The notes under the pieces are model-generated. The model was not told the origin of the DNA. It ran no database searches and worked only from the letters and a program-made list of their open reading frames with translations. Made by a program: the position numbers and the translations under genes. 53,156 nt of DNA, taken from a virus. Where the stretch lies: positions 1-53,156 of the IMG/VR virus record IMGVR_UViG_3300047494_000008; one strand, given 5' to 3'. This document shows, piece by piece, positions 1,322-39,130 of the stretch. How positions within the stretch are numbered: position 1 is the first letter of the stretch; the number at the start of each line of letters is the position of its first letter.

Positions 1322-1633
1322 ATGACCACCACGATCATCGTCTCGCCCAATGAGCATCCCATCCTGGTCACTCTCAACCAGAGCAACGAGCACAACGGCC
1401 TGCACTTCTCGAACTACAGCCAGCAAATCCTGCTCCCCGGCGATCCCAAGCAGCAGTTCCATATCAGCAAGGGCGGGTCCATCGTCGTGGACGAACTGGA
1501 AGTTGACGATGAGCGCGCCCAGAAAGAGCGTGAGAAGCGCAACCCAGCGCGTGGGTTCACCAAGCCCGATGACTATGGCCACGAACTCATGAGGGAGGAA
1601 GAACGCGCACGCGCGCGTGCCCCAGCCGACTGA
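1322..1633 (+). CDS. Unknown 103-residue protein in the control region
   Basis: ATG at 1322 follows AGAGGA with about 8 bases of spacing. The first ~60 residues (TIIVSPNEHPILVTLNQ) look like beta-strands, while the last 40 are highly charged and helical (DDERAQKEREKRN, MREEERARARAPAD). No family is recognised. It stands alone between the leftward promoter and the structural operon, with a long stable hairpin (1652-1680) after its stop. The opposite-strand frame covering it is a GC-rich shadow lacking a binding site. Its isolated position in the control region makes a regulatory role possible, but no DNA-binding motif is visible. Confidence 0.75.
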   Translation: MTTTIIVSPNEHPILVTLNQSNEHNGLHFSNYSQQILLPGDPKQQFHISKGGSIVVDELEVDDERAQKEREKRNPARGFTKPDDYGHELMREEERARARAPAD

Positions 1634-1803: not shown

Positions 1804-1832
1804 TTGATATAACCCCTCCATTCATGTATAAC
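1804..1832 (+). promoter_or_regulatory. Rightward sigma-70-like promoter of the structural operon
   Basis: TTGATA (1804-1809, five of six), a 17-base spacer and TATAAC (1827-1832, five of six) form the best rightward promoter seen. Predicted start is near 1839. There is no other gene before the small terminase at 2008, so this should drive the packaging and virion genes. The palindrome AACATTGAT (1830-1838) overlaps the -10 and the start point. Confidence 0.75.
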
Positions 1833-1838
1833 ATTGAT
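1830..1838. promoter_or_regulatory. Putative operator AACATTGAT over the -10/+1 region
   Basis: A copy of the dispersed A-W-C-A-N-T-G-W-T palindrome covering the end of the -10 hexamer and the predicted transcription start. Another copy (AACAATGAT, 1731-1739) lies about 65 bases upstream of the -35. Occupancy would occlude the promoter. Confidence 0.55.
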
Positions 1839-1852
1839 GGCGGTGCGGCGGA

Positions 1853-1919
1853 CTTGCCAGCACCTCCAACCCTTGGTAGAAGAGTGTTGCGGGTGCTTCG
1901 GGCGACGGGGGCTGGCAAG
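1853..1919 (+). promoter_or_regulatory. Candidate antiterminator stem in the leader of the structural operon
   Basis: CTTGCCAGC (1853-1861) is exactly complementary to GCTGGCAAG (1911-1919), with 49 bases between. The 3' arm is shared with the terminator stem at 1907-1947, so the two structures cannot form together. This is the standard layout of an attenuator. What would switch it (protein, ribosome, ligand) is unknown. Confidence 0.45.
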
Positions 1920-1954
1920 GGTGATTGGTCTCCCCTTGTCGGCCCCTTCGTTTT
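1907..1954 (+). terminator. Intrinsic terminator in the leader upstream of the small terminase
   Basis: Bases 1907-1921 pair with 1933-1947 over 15 positions (CAAGGG with CCCTTG at the loop end, GGGG with CCCC at the base, three G-U pairs), loop 11 bases. TTCGTTTT (1947-1954) follows as an imperfect U-tract. It lies after the promoter at 1804-1832 and before the gene at 2008, so it would cut off the structural operon unless the alternative stem 1853-1861/1911-1919 forms. Confidence 0.55.
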
Positions 1955-2007
1955 AACGCCAGGGCGAAGCCCTTGCGTTGCCGCTTTCCATCGCTAGGAT
2001 GGGTCCC

Positions 2008-2442
2008 ATGAGCGCGCTTGCTTTAGTCACTGATCCGTCCACATTTGGTTGGCCGCCCGGTCTCCCTTTCGAGCTTGCTTTACGTCAAGCGAAGCCGAGC
2101 GAGGTCTGCCAATCTTACGGATTGGCGAAGTCGGATTATGTTCGTCTATGCAACGATCCCGCGTTTATCGAAGCTCTTGAGGACGCGTGCGAGCAGGTTA
2201 AAAGAGAGGGCGTGACCTTCCGCAAGAAAGCTCAGGTCCAGGCCGAAGAGTTGCTCAAGACAAGCTGGACGCTCATTCACGAGAGCTTCGAGAACGTGCC
2301 CGCCAAAGTGAAGGCCGATCTCATCATGTGGACGCAGCGCATCGCGGGCTACGACGCCAGCCTCGATCAGAAAGCCCTTGCCCAGGCGAGCGCCGTGCAA
2401 CAAAACGCTCTCCAGATCATTATAAACTTAGGCGACGCCTAA
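2008..2442 (+). CDS. terS: Probable terminase small subunit
   Basis: ATG 2008 follows AGGA (1996-1999) with 8 bases of spacing; the in-frame ATG at 1999 overlaps that binding site. The 144-residue protein has an N-terminal helix-turn-helix-like segment (PSEVCQSYGLAKSDYVRL), then a charged helical region and an Ala/Gln-rich C-terminal tail. This is the usual plan of small terminases, which bind the packaging site and feed DNA to the large subunit encoded at 3565. Assignment rests on position (first gene of the head operon, three small genes before TerL), length and HTH pattern, not on a diagnostic motif. Confidence 0.6.
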   Translation: MSALALVTDPSTFGWPPGLPFELALRQAKPSEVCQSYGLAKSDYVRLCNDPAFIEALEDACEQVKREGVTFRKKAQVQAEELLKTSWTLIHESFENVPAKVKADLIMWTQRIAGYDASLDQKALAQASAVQQNALQIIINLGDA

Positions 2443-3564: not shown

Positions 3565-5046
3565 GTGTCCAGCATAATCGAATACACGCCTCCACGAACA
3601 CTAAAAGGGTTCATCCGCGATCACAAGCTGGATGAGCTTTTCTATGACTGGGTGGTTGGTCCCGTAGGGTCGGGCAAGACGACTGCGATCTTCATGAAGC
3701 TGGTGGTGATGGCGCAGCTACAGGCCGCCAGCCCCGATGGGATACGCAGGACGCGCGCGGTGATCGTGCGCAATACCATGCCCCAGTTGAAGGACACGAC
3801 CCTCATAAGCTGGGGATACTGGTTCAAGGATGGCCAGGCCGGCGACTGGAACGCCACCGACAAGATTTTCACGCTGCGCTTCGCCGACGTCGAGTGCATC
3901 GTCATGTTCCGGCCCCTGGACACCCCCGATGACATATCCCGCGTCCTGTCGCTCGAAATCAACTTTGCCATCATTGATGAGTTTGTGGAAATCCCCCGCG
4001 CGATTGTCGATGCTCTCAGCGCGCGCCTGGGCCGCTACAAGCAGCCTGATGGAACCCCCGTCACCATCTACGGCATGTGGGGCTCATCCAACCCTTCGAC
4101 GGAAGATAATTGGTGGTACGATTATCTGCACGGACCCGACGTTATCAGGTGGAACAAAGACAAAGAGGTGATGGCGCTCAATAACCCAGATCTGGAATTG
4201 AACGCCAAATACTTCCACCAGCCCAGCGCGCTCTTGGAGAACGAGCGCGAGAACGTCGAGAACCTGCCCGGCAAGGCGAAATACTATACGAACGTTATGA
4301 AGGGCAAGAGCAATGTCTGGATCAAGCAATTCGTGGAAGCTGAATGGGGGTTCAGCGTATCGGGCCAGCCTGTCGTGCCTGGCTTTCGCGATCACCACCT
4401 GGCGCGCAAGCCGCTCAAGTTCGAGCCCAGCCTGCCCCTGGTGATCGGCTTCGATCCTGGCCTGGGCGGCTCTGCGTTCATCTTCCTCCAGATGGACCTG
4501 GATGGGTTCGTCAACGTCCTGGGCGAGCTTGTGCAGGAAGGCTACGGCGCGGTTCGTCTCATCAACGAGCGTCTCCAACCAACTATGCGGCTCAGGTTCT
4601 ACGACGCCACGCGCGTCATCATCGCGGCGGACCCGGCGTCGAAGCAGCGCGCCAGCACTGATGAGCGGTCCACAGTTAGGATGTTCGAGGATCACTATGA
4701 CATCAAGACGGAGAGCAACAACCGCTTCCCCCTGCGCCTCAACGCCATTGACCATTTCGTCAATCTTAACATCCTGGGTGAGCCTTGCTTGCGGATCGAC
4801 CCCCAGCAATGCCCCATTCTTGTTCGCGCTCTTAAAGGCGGCTGGCGCTACGGGGCCGACGTCAAAAAAGACATCCTGAAAGGGGCCGAGCCTGAGAAAA
4901 ACAAGTTCTCGCACCCTGGCGACGCGTTCGGCTACGGCTTGCGGTTCTTCCACAAAGGGTTAATCAGGGACGAAAAGCACGGTACGCGCGTGGGCACGCT
5001 GACCCAGCGTATGCCTGAGTTTAAGAACAACTACGTCTGGAGATAG
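3565..5046 (+). CDS. terL: Terminase large subunit (DNA-packaging ATPase-nuclease)
   Basis: 493 residues. It begins at GTG 3565; no ATG occurs before the ATPase motif. Walker A is GPVGSGKT (residues 32-39) and Walker B is IIDE (136-139). The C-terminal RNase H-like nuclease shows the Asp of GFDPGLGG (D297), a second acidic strand (VIIAADPASK) and the late SHPGDAFGYG motif. All core motifs are intact. The protein pumps DNA into the prohead through the portal encoded next and cuts the concatemer. The binding site before the GTG is weak, suggesting low expression or coupling to the gene ending at 3556. The stop codon is separated by two bases from the portal start. Confidence 0.95.
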   Translation: MSSIIEYTPPRTLKGFIRDHKLDELFYDWVVGPVGSGKTTAIFMKLVVMAQLQAASPDGIRRTRAVIVRNTMPQLKDTTLISWGYWFKDGQAGDWNATDKIFTLRFADVECIVMFRPLDTPDDISRVLSLEINFAIIDEFVEIPRAIVDALSARLGRYKQPDGTPVTIYGMWGSSNPSTEDNWWYDYLHGPDVIRWNKDKEVMALNNPDLELNAKYFHQPSALLENERENVENLPGKAKYYTNVMKGKSNVWIKQFVEAEWGFSVSGQPVVPGFRDHHLARKPLKFEPSLPLVIGFDPGLGGSAFIFLQMDLDGFVNVLGELVQEGYGAVRLINERLQPTMRLRFYDATRVIIAADPASKQRASTDERSTVRMFEDHYDIKTESNNRFPLRLNAIDHFVNLNILGEPCLRIDPQQCPILVRALKGGWRYGADVKKDILKGAEPEKNKFSHPGDAFGYGLRFFHKGLIRDEKHGTRVGTLTQRMPEFKNNYVWR

Positions 5047-12404: not shown

Positions 12405-12413
12405 GGTTAGTTG

Positions 12414-15400
12414 ATGGCTTACGGTGGCCTTCCTGATTTTGGCTCCTACCTAGACAGCGCGCAGGCGGCTCCTGCCCCTCAGGCTCCCGCGCAGGCGGCT
12501 CCCCAGGCGTCGGGCACCGGCAACTGGTTGACCGCTGGTCTGGGGTCAGGCTTCTACGGCCAACTCGCCAACATTGGTGGCTTTGGCGAAGCGGCTGCGC
12601 GTGCGGTGGGCGCGGACAGCGCGGCGGACAGCGCGGCTGCGTTCGCGGATCGCCAGCGGGCGACAGCGCAGACCTACGCGCGGCCCGACCTAGAGGCTCA
12701 ACCATGGTACAGCCCCGGCGGCTTCGGCTACCGGCTGGCTCAGATGATCCCCGGCGCGGGCGTCGGCCTGGCGGGCGCTGCGGCTGGCGCGGCGCTGGCC
12801 CCCGAAGAGGCGGTTGCTGCGGGCCTTACAGGCATCGGCGGCGTCATCGCGCGCCACGCGGCCCTGACGGGCGCGACGCTGGCGTCCTATCCCGGCGCGG
12901 TCGGCGAGGACGTCCAGGCGAGCAAGGAATATAACGGCGATCTGAGCCAAGGCAACGCGGCCAAGGCGCTGGTCGCGGGCGTCCCGCAGGCGGCCCTCCA
13001 GGGCATCGTGGCCGGCAAGCTAGAGGGCGCGCTGGCAGGCGACGTTGGCGGTGGGTTCCTCAAGGGCCTCAAGACGCAGGCGATCACTCAGGCGGCTGTC
13101 GCCCCGGCGTCGGATTTCATCACCCAGATGATGGGCGATCCCAACCGGCCTATGGGCGACCGTGCGCAACAGTTGGTGGAGGATGCGCTGCAAGGCGGCG
13201 TGTTTGGCGCGGCGACCGGCGGCGTCATCCATGCTGGCTCGGCGGCGCTGCACGCCATCGCCAAAATCCCGGTTCAGAACGTCACCAGTGGTAGCTTGTT
13301 TGCCACGATCAACGAGTACCTCAACCCTGTCAAGGAATACGCGCCGCCGCCGGCTCCCGCGCAGTTCGAGGGTCCTCAACCAAACCCGGTCGTGTTCGGC
13401 AAGAGGCAGTTCCCCTCGTTCCTGGACCGCTCGAACCTGGGCGACCCGACGCGCGACGCTCCCGACATCCAGCCGCAGCTTCCGTTGCAGACGCAACAGG
13501 ACATCGCGGCGGCCAATCGCAACCGGCCCAAGGGGACGTTGTTCACAGGCGACTTCAACGATCCCACCAGCCCGAACTTCCCGGCGGCGGGCGGTCTGAA
13601 TGACAACGAGAGCGACGCACTCGGCCCCGTGCGCGAGCCCTCGCCGCAGCTTGAACTGCCCCTGACCCCGCCGGGCCAGGTGCCGGTCGCGAACCCGCAG
13701 GTCGTGGGGACCGATCCCACGCCTCAGCCCCCGGCCAAGGGGCCGTCCACCAACCCCGCCGACGCGGCGTTCCCGGCGGCGGGCGGCGTCAACCGCAATG
13801 AGCCCGGTCCTGAGCCCCACGGCGAGCCCACGGGACAGCAAGTGTTCACGTTCGCCAAGCCCGGCTCTGAGCCCGTGGCGAACCCGCAGGCGGTCCAGGA
13901 TGCGCCCACGTCCCAGCCCCCGGTCAAGGGGCCGACTGGAGACGTGCGCAGCCCCGATTTCCCGGCCACCGGCGGCGTAAACCGCAACGAGCCTACCCCC
14001 GGCCCCGTCCGCGACGCGACGGCCCAGGGCGACGCTCTGAGCAAGCCTGACGAGATCGCCCCGGCGAACGACAAGTTCGACCAGAGCACGATCCAGTCGG
14101 ACATGAAGCGCATCCCCTCGCTCAGGGATGCGCAGTTCAAAACGCAGACGGAAGCCGAGACGGCTATTGCGAAAGAGATCACGGATCGCGAGGCCGCCGG
14201 CAAGGTCGCGCCCCCGGCGCTGATCCGCATTGCGGATGAGTTGAAAATCCTGACACCCGACAAGGCGCTCAAGCCGGAGTTCTTGCCTGAGGAAGCCAAG
14301 CCCGAAGGACCGGACGAGACGCTCGCGGCTGGCCCCCAGGCTCCCGAAGCGCCCCCGCGCGATGCGATCAAGAAAGGCCATCAACCAACCTTTGATCGGC
14401 TCCAGGCGTTGCGCGACGCGCTCGGCGACAATCTGAGCGATCCCGACACGTTCGGTCTGGTCAAGAAAGTCACTGACCTCCAGAACGAACTCCAGGACGT
14501 GAAGGGCTCGCAGCGCGCGGGCAAGATCAAACAAGAGACGACGGACCTTGAGGGCCAGGTCAGGGCGAAGCAGCGCGATGCGGCGACGCCGCCCCCGACC
14601 GATCCCACGGCCATCGCGACCAGCACCAAGGCGAGCCCTGACACCCAGGCGTTCATCGACAAGGCGACGGCGCAGCCTGCACCCACGGGCGAGGCTGCCG
14701 TCAAAGCCAAGCGTGCGGGCAAGGCCCCCAAGGCGGCCAAGGCTCCTGTGGACACCCTGCCTGAGGCGGTGCCGGCGGTGAGCGCGCCTGAGCCCGTGGC
14801 CAACCCTGACGCGGCCAAGGTGCCGCTGGTGGCCAAGACGGGCGAGGCGGCGGCCAAGGCGCGCAAGGCGGCCAAGCCTGCGCTGTCTCCGCGCGACCAG
14901 GTGGTCCAGGCGTTCCTGGATCAATCGGGCGGCAAGACCGATACGTCGGTCGGGCTCACGAAACTGCGTCAGGCGTTGAAGGGCATGACCCGCGATGAGC
15001 AGGACGCGGCGCTCGCGCAGATCAGCAAGGGCGACCCCGAACTGACGCTCATGGCGCAGGACAAGCCCAGCTTCGCGAAGCGCGATGCGAGGCCGGGCGA
15101 TGAGTTCGGCGATCCCAGCAACCCCAGCCATGCGCTCTGGTACGGGCCGAAGGGTCTCAACGTCGGCAACCCTGACGTAGCCAACAATGTTGACACGCCG
15201 AAGCAGACGACGACCCCGCGCGCGTCGGCCAAAAAGATCAAAGCGCGCATCAATGATGGCCCCGCCACAGAGGCGATCCAGCGCCAGAAGAACGAGAGCC
15301 AGACGATCCAGGCGGTGGAAAGCGAGGTCAAACGCGCCCCCAAGGTGCCCGTCACGCCTGAGATCACGGCGCTGATCGCCAAGACGCGCGCTGCGCTGGA

Positions 15401-18400
15401 GGCTCTCAAGTCAATGACGCCGCGCAGCATCACCAAGGTGCCCAGCCTTGTGGAGAACGTCGTCGCGCATGAGCGTCAGTTGAACGTGCTGGAAAAGGCT
15501 GCGAACGAGGGCGGCTTGGGTGCTCTACGCAATTTCCGGCCCGACCACTTCGATGACAAGCTCTGGACGGACCATGTGGGCCGTATGACGCCTGACGGTG
15601 AGGCCGCGCTGGAGGCGCACGCCAACGCAGAGACGGACTTGATTGACGCGATTACCAGGCTGCGCGGCGAGCGGCCCCTAATCCGCTACTCGGTGCAGCC
15701 GACGCAGGGCGACGTCAACCTCACGAACGTCATCGCCAAGACGGGCAAGCTGAGCGACGCGCTGGCGCATATCACCCAGAACGATCCATCCCCGGCCAAC
15801 CGGCTGATGTCCAGCATCCTGGAGCGCCAGGGGCTCGACACGGACATTCGCATGGCCGGCGACGATCAACTGCCCCTGGACACCACGCGAAAGCTTGGAG
15901 AAGGTCAGTTGATCGCGGCCTCGCATAACGACGCGCTCAACCGGATCAGCGTTTACGACGGTGCGAACGTCTCGCGCTCGGTGCTGCACGAGGCGATCCA
16001 CGCGGCGACCGTGCGCGCCCTGGCGGCTGGGTCCCGCGCCGCCAGCGCCATCCGTGAGATATTCGACAACTTGAGCAAGCGTGCCGAGGGCAAGGGCTTC
16101 TACGGCATGACCAGCCCTGAGGAAATGGTGGCTGAGGCCGGCTCCAACCCGCAGTTCCAGCAATTCCTCAAGAGCGAGCCGTGGCAGATCAACGGCGTCC
16201 GCGACGCGTGGCAGGCGCTCAAGAACAGCATCTTCAAGGCGCTCGGTATGCCTGAGCGCGTGAGGACGGCCTTCGATCAGGTGATGGACAGCACCCAGAA
16301 GCTCATGGCGGAGAACCCGACCAAGGCCGCTATCACTGGTGACCGTCCGCTTATGGTTGAGCGTGGTGTGAAGCGTGCGACCGAAATGATCGACGCGGTG
16401 GGTAACCAATCGCTGTCGCGGCTCGCGCGCGAGGCGGACGGCGTGCGCACCGGCCTGACCCGTGCGGCGACGGATGGCATCCTGGGCTTCGCTCCCAGCT
16501 ACGACGTGGGCGAGATACACAACAAGACGGTGCCGACGTTTCGCGACTATGTGAAGTCCGTCAGCTATCTCGATGGTCGCAAAGACACCTACTATAAGAC
16601 TGCGGCGGCTGCGCTGCACTCGCTGGAGGGCGTGTCGAAGAAAGGCGTGGACCTCATCAACGCGGTGGCGCGGCGCACCTTCCAGGGGCTCGATGGGTCC
16701 AAGACGTGGGCGGAGCATCCCGAAGCGATCAGGAGCCATCCGAAGGCTGACGTGCTCAAACAGGAGCACGCGGACGCGCGGACGGAATACAACGAACTGA
16801 GCAAAGCTGACGGCGGCAAGGCGCTCAAGGCGTTCAACGACATGCGCGCCGAGTATGCGACCAAATACAGCCTGGGCATGACCCACCAGCTATGGGACTA
16901 CGCGAGCAACCACGCGCCTGAGTTGCTGACGAACGGGGCCAAGGGTTTCGAGAGCAACCCGTTCTACGACTACGACAAGGCGTTCGCGGTTCACGACAGC
17001 CCAAAGCTGGCGCAGGCTTACGCTCAGGCGCGCGAGAGCACGATGCGCGAGACGTTGAAGGCTACGCACTCCGAACTGCGCACCAACATGGACAACCTTG
17101 CTGCGCAAGTGAAGGCCGACGATAAAATCCGAAAGGCCATCAAGGATAAAAAGACGATCTCAGGTGCGGAGCTTCCCAAGGAAGTGCGCAAGACGCTCGA
17201 CAGCGATTACGCGGAGGCGCAGGCGCGCTACAAGCAACTGAACACGCTGCTCAACCAGGTTGACGCCGGCAACAAACAACAGGCTCAGTCGCCTTACGCC
17301 CACCTGGGCCGTGAGGGCGAGCACTTTGTTGGCGCGAACCTGGCCAAGGATGATGGGGGCGTCGTCAAAGAGGCCGCCATCGCGGCTCTGCGAAAGGAAC
17401 TGGGGACGAGCTTCAAGAACGTCGCGATCATGCAGGGCTCAACCAGCGAGGGCTTCTACGCTCGCGTGGGCAGCGAGACGGAGCGGCGCGGGCTGGTGGA
17501 GGCGCTGGTCAGGCTGCAAAAGGCCGGTCACATTGACGAGGGCTCGATCACGCGCGGCCTGGCGACCGACAAGCATATGTTCGAGAGCCTGACGCCCGCC
17601 ACCATGCGCGAGATCGTGGAGCAGGCGAAAGCCAACGTCCCGGAAATCCCGCCGGGCTCCACGGACAAGCAGAAGCAGGCCATCATTGATAGTCACAAGA
17701 ACAACGTCAACGAACTGATGCGGTCGCTGGTTGAACTGATCCCCAAGACGGGCTTCCAGCGCCTCTATCAATATCGCGAGGGCGTTAACGGCTTCAACGC
17801 CGATATGGTCAAGAACTTCCGCTCCGCCGCCGAGAACAATTCGGCGGGCCTGGCGAACCTGACCATGGCGTCGGAGATCGGCGGCAAGCGCAGCGCCATG
17901 AACGACCAGGTAAAGGATGTCCACGGCAACCTGAACCTGAGCGAGGGTCAGGTGACGTCTATCGACCAGGCTCACGCTGAGTTGCTGGCGCGGTCGCAGA
18001 AGATCAAGACGTACTCGACCACGAGCGCCATGGATGCTTTCCGCAAAGCGTCGCATGTGTTCTCGGTCGGCATGTCGCCGGTCTACGTGATGACCTTGAT
18101 TGGTCAGATATTCACGAACTCGCTCCCGCAGTTGGGATCGGTCCACGGTTATGTGGAGGGCGCAAGCGCGCTCGGACGAGCGACGAACAAGACGTTCAAG
18201 ATCACCAGCGCCGTGGCGCGGGGACAGGACGCGGCGACGTTCGGCATGAGGGAGAGCACGCTGCGCGCGGCGGGGCTCGATGACAAGACGATTGCCGATC
18301 ACATGGAACTCGCCCGGCGTGGTCTCTATGCGCAGGGCTACACTGATAGCGTCAGTGGTCACCAGGTCGGCGGCACGCTGAGTAAGGTGTTCCACTACGC

Positions 18401-19592
18401 CAACTCGATGGGCCGCTACGCGGAAATGGCCCCGCGCGTCCAGTTGGGCGAGGCCGCGATGGACCTGTTCCAGAAAAAGCCGGTCCCCGGCTTCAAGGAC
18501 AAATACGATTACGCAGAGCACGTCATCAACGAGGCTCAGTTTGGTTGGGGTGCGTCCACCAACGCTCGCCAGCTAACTCGTGCCGGCGTGTTCGGCGTCA
18601 TGTCGCCTCTGGTCAACCAATTCATGGGCTTCCAGACGCGCATGACCGCCAAGCTCTATCGTGAGGTGCATGGCGCGGTCGGCGGCGACAAGCAGGCTCA
18701 GAAGTGGTTGCTGGGCCACGCTGCGGCGGTGGCGGCGCTGTCGGGCACCCTGGGGCTCCCCATGGTCTCGGTGGCCGCCAGCGTCTACGACAGGCTAGCG
18801 GACTGGGCGACCGGCAGCGACGATCATGACGTCATCGCCAGCTACCGCACGTTCCTGGCGCACGCGTTCGGCAAGGACGTGGGCGAGGTGATCGCGCGCG
18901 GCGCACCCAGGGCGGTCGGGATCGACTTCGATCACGCGGGCGAGGGCGCCATCGCGCCGGGCTCGTCAACTATCCTGGCCTTGACCGAGAAGCGCAAGCT
19001 GGAGGACGCGGAGCGAGATTGGTTGAAGAATATGGGCGGCCACTCGGTCGGCTTCATGTTCCACCTGGCGGCTGCGGCGCGCGACTTCTCGAACGGCGAT
19101 TATCTGGACGCCACCGAGAAGATGACGCCGGAACTCATCAAGGGTGGCGTGGAGGCGTACCGGCTGAGCGAGCGCGGGTTCGTGGACAAGAACGGCCAGA
19201 AGCTCCCGATCACGGCGAGCACGGGGGACATCATGCAGACGGCCATGGGTCTCGATCCGGCGAAAGAGGCCGAATACAACGAGGAACAAAAGACGGCGAC
19301 CGGCCTGAACCAGATGCGCCAGATCAGGTCGCAGAATATCACGCGCCACCTCCTGCTCGCGCAGAGCCGGGGCGACGGGCCGATGTTCCAAGAATGGGAG
19401 CGCGAGGCCACCCAGTTCCAGATGGACCACCCAGGCATGGCCGGTCCTCTCCAAGACTTCGGACGCGAGCTTGCGACGCACGCGCGCTCCGTTGCCACCG
19501 CCAAGGGCTTTGGTACACCCTTGGGCGTCAAACCGCGCGACATCGTTGGGCGGGGGATGACGGCGTTCGGCAATTTGCGGAACGACCAGTAA
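12414..19592 (+). CDS. Giant polyvalent internal virion protein with a zinc-metallopeptidase motif
   Basis: 2392 residues; ATG 12414 follows GAGG. The N-terminus has glycine/alanine-rich hydrophobic segments (IPGAGVGLAGAAAGAALAPE). Residues ~385-540 hold three Pro-rich repeats of 63-64 residues, marked by FPAAGG/FPATGG at 389, 453 and 516. A Lys/Ala/Pro linker follows. HEAIH at 1192-1196 (in RSVLHEAIHAATVRAL) fits HExxH, and EEMVAE (1236-1241) may give the third zinc ligand. This pattern is known from metallopeptidase domains of phage polyvalent proteins. The C-terminal ~600 residues, with two hydrophobic segments (MSPVYVMTLIGQIF; AAAVAALSGTLGLPMVSVAA), resemble the LPD38-type region of such proteins. 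It is probably packaged and ejected with the DNA, acting on host envelope or defence proteins; the target is unknown. Confidence 0.8.
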   Translation: MAYGGLPDFGSYLDSAQAAPAPQAPAQAAPQASGTGNWLTAGLGSGFYGQLANIGGFGEAAARAVGADSAADSAAAFADRQRATAQTYARPDLEAQPWYSPGGFGYRLAQMIPGAGVGLAGAAAGAALAPEEAVAAGLTGIGGVIARHAALTGATLASYPGAVGEDVQASKEYNGDLSQGNAAKALVAGVPQAALQGIVAGKLEGALAGDVGGGFLKGLKTQAITQAAVAPASDFITQMMGDPNRPMGDRAQQLVEDALQGGVFGAATGGVIHAGSAALHAIAKIPVQNVTSGSLFATINEYLNPVKEYAPPPAPAQFEGPQPNPVVFGKRQFPSFLDRSNLGDPTRDAPDIQPQLPLQTQQDIAAANRNRPKGTLFTGDFNDPTSPNFPAAGGLNDNESDALGPVREPSPQLELPLTPPGQVPVANPQVVGTDPTPQPPAKGPSTNPADAAFPAAGGVNRNEPGPEPHGEPTGQQVFTFAKPGSEPVANPQAVQDAPTSQPPVKGPTGDVRSPDFPATGGVNRNEPTPGPVRDATAQGDALSKPDEIAPANDKFDQSTIQSDMKRIPSLRDAQFKTQTEAETAIAKEITDREAAGKVAPPALIRIADELKILTPDKALKPEFLPEEAKPEGPDETLAAGPQAPEAPPRDAIKKGHQPTFDRLQALRDALGDNLSDPDTFGLVKKVTDLQNELQDVKGSQRAGKIKQETTDLEGQVRAKQRDAATPPPTDPTAIATSTKASPDTQAFIDKATAQPAPTGEAAVKAKRAGKAPKAAKAPVDTLPEAVPAVSAPEPVANPDAAKVPLVAKTGEAAAKARKAAKPALSPRDQVVQAFLDQSGGKTDTSVGLTKLRQALKGMTRDEQDAALAQISKGDPELTLMAQDKPSFAKRDARPGDEFGDPSNPSHALWYGPKGLNVGNPDVANNVDTPKQTTTPRASAKKIKARINDGPATEAIQRQKNESQTIQAVESEVKRAPKVPVTPEITALIAKTRAALEALKSMTPRSITKVPSLVENVVAHERQLNVLEKAANEGGLGALRNFRPDHFDDKLWTDHVGRMTPDGEAALEAHANAETDLIDAITRLRGERPLIRYSVQPTQGDVNLTNVIAKTGKLSDALAHITQNDPSPANRLMSSILERQGLDTDIRMAGDDQLPLDTTRKLGEGQLIAASHNDALNRISVYDGANVSRSVLHEAIHAATVRALAAGSRAASAIREIFDNLSKRAEGKGFYGMTSPEEMVAEAGSNPQFQQFLKSEPWQINGVRDAWQALKNSIFKALGMPERVRTAFDQVMDSTQKLMAENPTKAAITGDRPLMVERGVKRATEMIDAVGNQSLSRLAREADGVRTGLTRAATDGILGFAPSYDVGEIHNKTVPTFRDYVKSVSYLDGRKDTYYKTAAAALHSLEGVSKKGVDLINAVARRTFQGLDGSKTWAEHPEAIRSHPKADVLKQEHADARTEYNELSKADGGKALKAFNDMRAEYATKYSLGMTHQLWDYASNHAPELLTNGAKGFESNPFYDYDKAFAVHDSPKLAQAYAQARESTMRETLKATHSELRTNMDNLAAQVKADDKIRKAIKDKKTISGAELPKEVRKTLDSDYAEAQARYKQLNTLLNQVDAGNKQQAQSPYAHLGREGEHFVGANLAKDDGGVVKEAAIAALRKELGTSFKNVAIMQGSTSEGFYARVGSETERRGLVEALVRLQKAGHIDEGSITRGLATDKHMFESLTPATMREIVEQAKANVPEIPPGSTDKQKQAIIDSHKNNVNELMRSLVELIPKTGFQRLYQYREGVNGFNADMVKNFRSAAENNSAGLANLTMASEIGGKRSAMNDQVKDVHGNLNLSEGQVTSIDQAHAELLARSQKIKTYSTTSAMDAFRKASHVFSVGMSPVYVMTLIGQIFTNSLPQLGSVHGYVEGASALGRATNKTFKITSAVARGQDAATFGMRESTLRAAGLDDKTIADHMELARRGLYAQGYTDSVSGHQVGGTLSKVFHYANSMGRYAEMAPRVQLGEAAMDLFQKKPVPGFKDKYDYAEHVINEAQFGWGASTNARQLTRAGVFGVMSPLVNQFMGFQTRMTAKLYREVHGAVGGDKQAQKWLLGHAAAVAALSGTLGLPMVSVAASVYDRLADWATGSDDHDVIASYRTFLAHAFGKDVGEVIARGAPRAVGIDFDHAGEGAIAPGSSTILALTEKRKLEDAERDWLKNMGGHSVGFMFHLAAAARDFSNGDYLDATEKMTPELIKGGVEAYRLSERGFVDKNGQKLPITASTGDIMQTAMGLDPAKEAEYNEEQKTATGLNQMRQIRSQNITRHLLLAQSRGDGPMFQEWEREATQFQMDHPGMAGPLQDFGRELATHARSVATAKGFGTPLGVKPRDIVGRGMTAFGNLRNDQ

Positions 19593-38448: not shown

Positions 38449-39042
38449 TCAGCCTTGTGCCGTGCGGGGTGCGAGGGTGGTGGAGCGGATCGAGGCGAAC
38501 TCGTCCTCGGACGTGTCGCCGTCCGACTTGAGCGCCTTGATGTTGGCGCGGGCCGACGCCTCGAACTCGGCGAGGGCTGCGGGGTCCATCGACTTGCGCA
38601 CCGCGTCGGTGCCGGCGGCGGCGACCAGGGCCTCGATTGCTGTCACCTTGCGGGTGGTTTCATCGTCGTTCGACGGGGGCGGCGAAGCAAGCTTGCCCGT
38701 CAATACTTCCGCAAAGTCGCGGTCGTCGCGGATTGACTTGTGTTCGATCCCGTCCAGGATGATTAGGGAGCAAGCGATGACGTGGAGCAGGTGGTGTTCC
38801 TTACTCTCTACGTCCATGTCCTCGCCGCCTTCGTACCACTCCACCAGATGACGAAAGATCGCATCGTAATAGGTGGACATACGAACCGGCTGGAGCCGCC
38901 AATTCTTCGTGCCGTACTTCTCGGCCCCCAGTTTATGGACTTTGGCCAGTCGAAGCATGAGCCGCATGGGGATTTTACTAACGCAATCCTTTTCCCGCCC
39001 CAAGTATTCCTTAGGGTTTTCCGTGTTGGTCTGGTCTGACAT
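38449..39042 (-). CDS. DUF5664-type dATP/dGTP diphosphohydrolase-like protein
   Basis: 197 residues. The start at ATG 39042 (MSDQTNTENPKEY) has AAGG upstream; the longer frame to 39093 crosses the terminator and is rejected. The domain motif is clear: AKVHKLGAEKYGTKNWR, a segment with YYDAIFRHLVEWYEGGEDMD, and ESKEHHLLHVIACSLIILDG. The Glu/Asp/His set matches all-alpha NTP pyrophosphatases. Relatives (MazZ) in phages with 2-aminoadenine DNA remove dATP and dGTP, but PurZ is absent here, so a general nucleotide-pool role is more likely. The last 80 residues are an added helical tail. Confidence 0.75.
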   Translation of the reverse strand: MSDQTNTENPKEYLGREKDCVSKIPMRLMLRLAKVHKLGAEKYGTKNWRLQPVRMSTYYDAIFRHLVEWYEGGEDMDVESKEHHLLHVIACSLIILDGIEHKSIRDDRDFAEVLTGKLASPPPSNDDETTRKVTAIEALVAAAGTDAVRKSMDPAALAEFEASARANIKALKSDGDTSEDEFASIRSTTLAPRTAQG

Positions 39043-39061
39043 TGTGCGGATACCTTGAGTG

Positions 39062-39090
39062 AAAACGCCCCCACCTAAAAGGTGAGGGCG
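39062..39090 (-). terminator. Leftward intrinsic terminator after the SSB-like gene
   Basis: On the minus strand CGCCCTCACC (39090-39081), loop TTTTA, GGTGGGGGCG (39075-39066) form a 10-bp stem with one G-U pair, followed by TTTT (39065-39062). It lies 41 bases after the stop of the gene ending at 39131 and 20 bases before the start of the next gene, so it closes the unit driven by the promoter at 40969-40997. Confidence 0.85.
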
Positions 39091-39130
39091 CAAGCTACAC
39101 TAAGTCACGAGAATGTTAAACGGGCGGCGA

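Follow-up and report, generated by a model that had tools for sequence, protein, structure and literature searches.

A promoter closely followed by a strong intrinsic terminator lies directly in front of the small terminase gene (terS) of this virus, and the question is what such an arrangement does there: whether the terminator belongs to a regulated leader of the packaging and virion operon, as the initial annotation proposed, or to a transcription unit of its own. The window (the whole 53,156-nt virus record IMGVR_UViG_3300047494_000008) carries its virion genes rightward, from terS (2008) through terL (3565) and portal (5049) to the major head protein (8395); most of them lie downstream of terS in this single direction, replication-type genes run leftward from ~53,100 to 35,500, and no integrase was found in the window. 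The product of terS matched nothing in PHROGs and Pfam searches but is 36–53% identical to the ORF upstream of terL in 28 relatives. Elsewhere in the window, a 2393-aa open frame at 12411–19592 in the virion region is likewise without a PHROGs match; and a 214-aa protein (38449–39093, − strand) has a top PHROGs match labelled “endolysin; inhibits RNA polymerase” but also matches the dATP/dGTP pyrophosphohydrolase family, so the label needs checking.

Table 1. Features of the region around the start of terS (positions in the window)
Feature	Position	Strand	Remarks
ORF103	1322..1633	+	small co-directional gene upstream; weakly similar ORF in L062
sigma70-type promoter TTGATA-17-TATAAC	1804..1832	+	10/12 consensus; predicted start ~1839
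CATTGATGGC motif, possible operator	1832..1841	+	adjoins the −10/start of the 1804 promoter
Predicted short transcript, candidate small RNA or terminated leader	1839..1954	+	~116 nt; layout shared by 12 relatives
5′ arm of the proposed 9-bp antiterminator	1853..1861	+	CTTGCCAGC; exact complement of 1911–1919; predicted not to form; no counterpart in relatives
Intrinsic terminator	1907..1954	+	15-bp hairpin 1907–1921/1933–1947, 11-nt interior, tail TCGTTTT
3′ arm of the proposed antiterminator	1911..1919	+	GCTGGCAAG; within the terminator 5′ arm
Second hairpin AACGC-C-AGGGC-gaa-GCCCT-T-GCGTT	1955..1979	+	without T run; fold of 1955–2007 z −1.8
Candidate leaderless terS promoter TTGCGT-16-TAGGAT	1973..2000	+	7/12; 7 nt before ATG
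terS, small terminase subunit	2008..2442	+	144 aa; named by position and conservation
terL, large terminase subunit	3565..5046	+	phrog_2, E 1.6e-27

A promoter and a terminator in front of terS

Between ORF103 and terS, the order is promoter, 15-bp terminator hairpin, second hairpin and the terS ATG at 2008. The promoter and the 15-bp terminator that the initial annotation had placed ahead of terS are both present, and the terminator is well beyond chance: its arms, GGGGGCTGGCAAGGG (1907–1921) and CCCTTGTCGGCCCCT (1933–1947), pair in a fold of −31.0 against a mean of −16.8 for shuffled sequences (z −5.2), a stability reached by none of 300 shuffles, and it shares the top score of the strict, clean terminators in the 53-kb window. 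The 1804 promoter is the sole promoter-like site with at least 10 of 12 consensus positions on the + strand of the window and the best on that strand (P 0.01 against shuffles of the region); none of 40 shuffled genomes contained a promoter this good (at least 10/12) with a clean terminator behind it at the same spacing. The predicted short RNA is covered by a 39-codon ATG frame (1837–1956) that stops in the tail of the terminator and has no visible ribosome site; no support was found for reading this frame as a leader peptide.

The 10-mer CATTGATGGC at the 1804 promoter is found again at 949–958, in the spacer of a leftward promoter-like site (965–937). Exact copies of CATTGATNGC number four in the first 2 kb (99–108, 206–215, 949–958 and 1832–1841) and five in the remaining 51 kb, and the copies at the two promoters are possibly one operator serving both directions. 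In the divergent intergenic region, GTTGATGGAGTTTGGTTGA occurs twice in perfect form (1010–1028 and 1037–1055), the copies being offset by 27 nt.

A recurrent layout and a probable separate terS promoter

Relatives were collected by terL, terS and head-protein scans of IMG/VR, with duplicates removed, giving a first set of 86 non-redundant loci and finally 93 loci whose sequence extends 200 nt or more upstream of terS, the window included. No DNA similarity to the window leader was found in phage records or in the fetched leaders, and no exact 20-mer of it in IMG/VR. Even so, terminators that fit a strict, clean definition and point the same way as terS are concentrated within 110 nt upstream of its start (11 of 86 loci), compared to 0–3 per 100-nt bin for same-strand clean terminators elsewhere between −2500 and +1500, a positional contrast of about tenfold; this strict definition was chosen after a looser one had failed to give clear enrichment (17/86 loci vs. 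36/430 shuffles, with controls up to 23%). Adding L037 and L015 to the 11 loci gave 13 leaders, that is, the window and 12 relatives, and 10 of the 13 have a promoter of at least 9/12 located ~65–130 nt before the hairpin end. Our comparison of these leader sequences indicates that the order of elements is conserved without sequence similarity: a sigma70-type promoter, ~70–115 nt, a strong co-directional terminator, and terS. A search for shared motifs across the 13 leaders did no better than on shuffles, and the sequence of the RNA body is not conserved in the group. A long neighbouring ORF points leftward in L002, L017, L100 and L024 (in L100 and L024 together with an overlapping rightward ORF about as long), so that the terminator at these loci would be expected to stop transcripts that start in the gap.

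The upstream regions of the relatives hold further repeats. Just upstream of the promoter of the short unit, L002 (−288 to −155 from terS) and L020 (−238 to −202) carry tandem repeats of GTACACGGCGGGTAATTA and CGGGTAATTAGATTTTTC, three each, and two copies of the palindrome AAGGGACTTGATCCCTT; all of these look operator-like. Palindromes near GTTTCACGTGAAAC in the last ~45 nt before terS of L050 and L052 resemble bacterial parS sites. Six relatives without a strict terminator at this place (L043, L058, L028, L067, L036 and L091) share a recurring non-coding block ~100–200 nt before terS, composed of AAGAATTACTT or similar, a C-run/G-run, and CACATAATTTTC or similar.

Downstream of the terminator, a second promoter-like site lies shortly before terS. 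Promoter-like sites (TA..., at least 7/12) start 12–13 nt before the terS ATG in 18 of the 93 loci, as compared with about one per position, and four at most, at other positions; in the window, TAGGAT stands at −13, the location expected for the −10 element of a leaderless mRNA and the one enriched in relatives, and 0.7% of the ATGs of the window have an equally good site at the same place. Proximal terS promoter-like sites are found in the terminator-bearing L017, L018, L003 and L100 as well as in the window; in L017 (TTGACA-17-TAGCTT-6-ATG) and L018 (TTGACA-16-TAACTT-6-ATG) the TTGACA −35 element is fused to the T tract of the terminator. Most other virion genes of the window have clear ribosome sites, whereas terS has only an AGGA inside the −10 element. 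Five of the 13 leaders (L002, L004, L020, L007 and L015) show no leaderless promoter, and read-through may supply terS there. The site of the window is a weak one, at 7/12, and its AGGA might equally be a ribosome-binding site. That −10 elements cluster at this distance from terS in the 93 loci speaks for an independent promoter, placed beyond the terminator, that yields leaderless terS mRNA; for the phage of the window such a promoter is likely. Accordingly, of the description of this region as the leader of the operon, the part that stands is that the terminator precedes terS; that the RNA it ends is the leader of terS is doubtful, in that phages of this group often have a leaderless terS promoter beyond the terminator.

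The proposed switch and other readings of the terminator

The initial annotation also held that a perfect 9-bp stem (1853–1861 with 1911–1919) competes with the terminator, as in an attenuator or a ligand-responsive switch. The complementarity exists (P ~0.01 against the shuffled leader body, a value uncorrected for searching and for a match picked out by eye), but folding of both states argues against any competition: the antiterminator-constrained fold reaches −41.2 kcal/mol and the free fold −60.0 kcal/mol, a gap of 18.8 kcal/mol; the central pair of the 9-bp stem has a probability of at most 0.002 for transcripts of every length between 1890 and 1958, i.e. the state is predicted never to be populated; and before the terminator 3′ arm exists, its 5′ arm is predicted to pair with ACCCTTGG near 1869–1876 and not with 1853–1861. 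These folds are equilibrium predictions for naked RNA, which a protein could change. The 12 same-layout relatives, none of them close in DNA, contain no counterpart of the stem: the longest complement of the body to the terminator 5′ arm is 4–6 nt, the chance level, so neither conservation nor covariation of two states is seen. The leader body (1839–1905) has no excess structure relative to shuffles (z +0.31), and the leader has no Rfam match at the gathering threshold. L003 and L037 share one promoter and body sequence but differ in both arms of the terminator, which have been replaced and still pair; this exchange keeps the terminator and would break any switch between body and terminator. 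This leader thus resembles attenuators and riboswitches in having a terminator and a second complementary segment, but differs from them in that its competing stem is far too weak and is not conserved, and in that it shows no aptamer-like structure or Rfam family. The 9-bp stem is most likely chance complementarity, and it is very improbable that it forms in cis under some condition and prevents termination.

A reading that we favoured at first is a late leader similar to lambda pR′-tR′, in which transcription from a constitutive promoter is halted at the terminator until a phage factor, either a Q-like protein or an RNA signal, lets polymerase continue into terS and the virion genes. As at a Q-dependent late promoter, late genes are preceded here by a promoter, a short leader and a strong terminator; the same order and spacing occur upstream of terminase in the 13 leaders, five of which have no other terS promoter, and most virion genes follow downstream in one direction. 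Q systems, however, need a −10-like element in the initial transcribed region for a sigma-dependent pause (PMC6606751), and such an element is absent from positions +1 to +15 of the 1804 transcript (best match 1/6). The phage proteins gave no match to the Q families PF03589 and PF06530; a search with PF06323 gave none either, but its control also went unmatched; and no Q was matched among the proteins scanned against PHROGs. These searches would miss an unrelated antiterminator. Many relatives without the terminator also have a proximal terS promoter site. Because of the promoter sites downstream of the terminator and the missing pause element, we lowered our estimate for the pR′-tR′-like reading. 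The locus also differs from lambda in that no Q could be recognised and terS probably has a promoter of its own, and this reading is now the main rival to the one we prefer, and clearly less likely.

Two further explanations give the terminator a role unrelated to the 1804 promoter or to RNA. It could serve as an insulator that ends the transcript of ORF103, the 1804 promoter being minor or incidental; ORF103 is indeed co-directional and upstream, and a small ORF, which by eye resembles ORF103, occupies the same place in L003 and L037. This explanation is unlikely, given that the 1804 promoter is unmatched on its strand, that ~270 nt separate the end of ORF103 from the terminator, and that the long neighbouring ORF of L002 and L017 points the other way. 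Packaging sites often lie near terS, and the inverted repeats at 1907–1947 and 1955–1979, the second of which follows the terminator, could therefore be DNA signals, as part of a cos/pac recognition site for terminase, and not RNA elements. We consider this highly improbable, as the T tract of the hairpin is on the correct strand with a promoter in front, and as clean T-tract hairpins in the last 100 nt before terS occur on the co-directional strand in 9 of 86 loci and on the other strand in none of the 86.

A proposed short RNA unit beside the packaging genes

We propose, with a probability of about one half, that 1804–1954 is a stand-alone short RNA unit followed by a separately started, probably leaderless terS message. 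Host RNA polymerase would start at ~1839 and stop at the intrinsic terminator at ~1950–1954, releasing an RNA of ~115 nt; the terminator would separate this short unit from terS; and most terS transcription would begin at a separate, nearby promoter on the far side of the terminator (TTGCGT-16-TAGGAT), probably giving a leaderless mRNA that opens with the ATG. The short RNA would most likely be a small regulatory RNA. Synthesis of this RNA, its action in trans and a start of the terS mRNA at 2008 are inferences from sequence.

As in a phage small-RNA gene, a promoter and a terminator of its own enclose a short stretch without an established gene. Counting against a small RNA, the body is neither conserved in sequence nor structured beyond chance, unlike many small RNAs. 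A CCUCC stretch in the bodies of the window, L017, L018 and L020 suggested pairing with ribosome sites; the stretch is common in GC-rich sequence. A more specific version of the stand-alone unit, which we put forward tentatively and consider rather unlikely, is a short RNA gene before a leaderless terminase gene, with position and promoter–terminator frame conserved and sequence turning over completely, whose product would target phage or host messages in trans, or take part in packaging, and not serve as a leader.

Known phage RNAs offer partial precedents. StxS is a short, terminated late-promoter RNA that acts as a functional small RNA (PMC7873438); it shares with the predicted RNA its short length, a strong promoter and an intrinsic terminator directly upstream of the late region, but StxS belongs to temperate lambdoid phages under Q control, whereas here there is no integrase or Q match and the RNA is a prediction. 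For IsrK of prophage Gifsy-1, one promoter gives both the short RNA and read-through (PMC4825925); at both loci a short RNA (here a predicted one) ends at a terminator of its own immediately ahead of genes, which in the case of IsrK are also reachable by read-through. The loci differ in that Gifsy-1 is a temperate prophage with the Q-like gene antQ adjoining, and in that read-through at the present unit is hypothetical. The unit is an element of an ordinary class, with parts that are real and a layout that recurs, and a switch is not supported.

In conclusion, the −10 elements that cluster 12–13 nt before terS suggest that terminase mRNAs without a leader are common among these phages. If the short RNA is made, these phages would encode RNAs at a fixed place beside their packaging genes; if our reading is true, such RNAs would be counterparts of the RNAs that lambdoid phages make from a late promoter and end at a terminator, apparently without a Q system.
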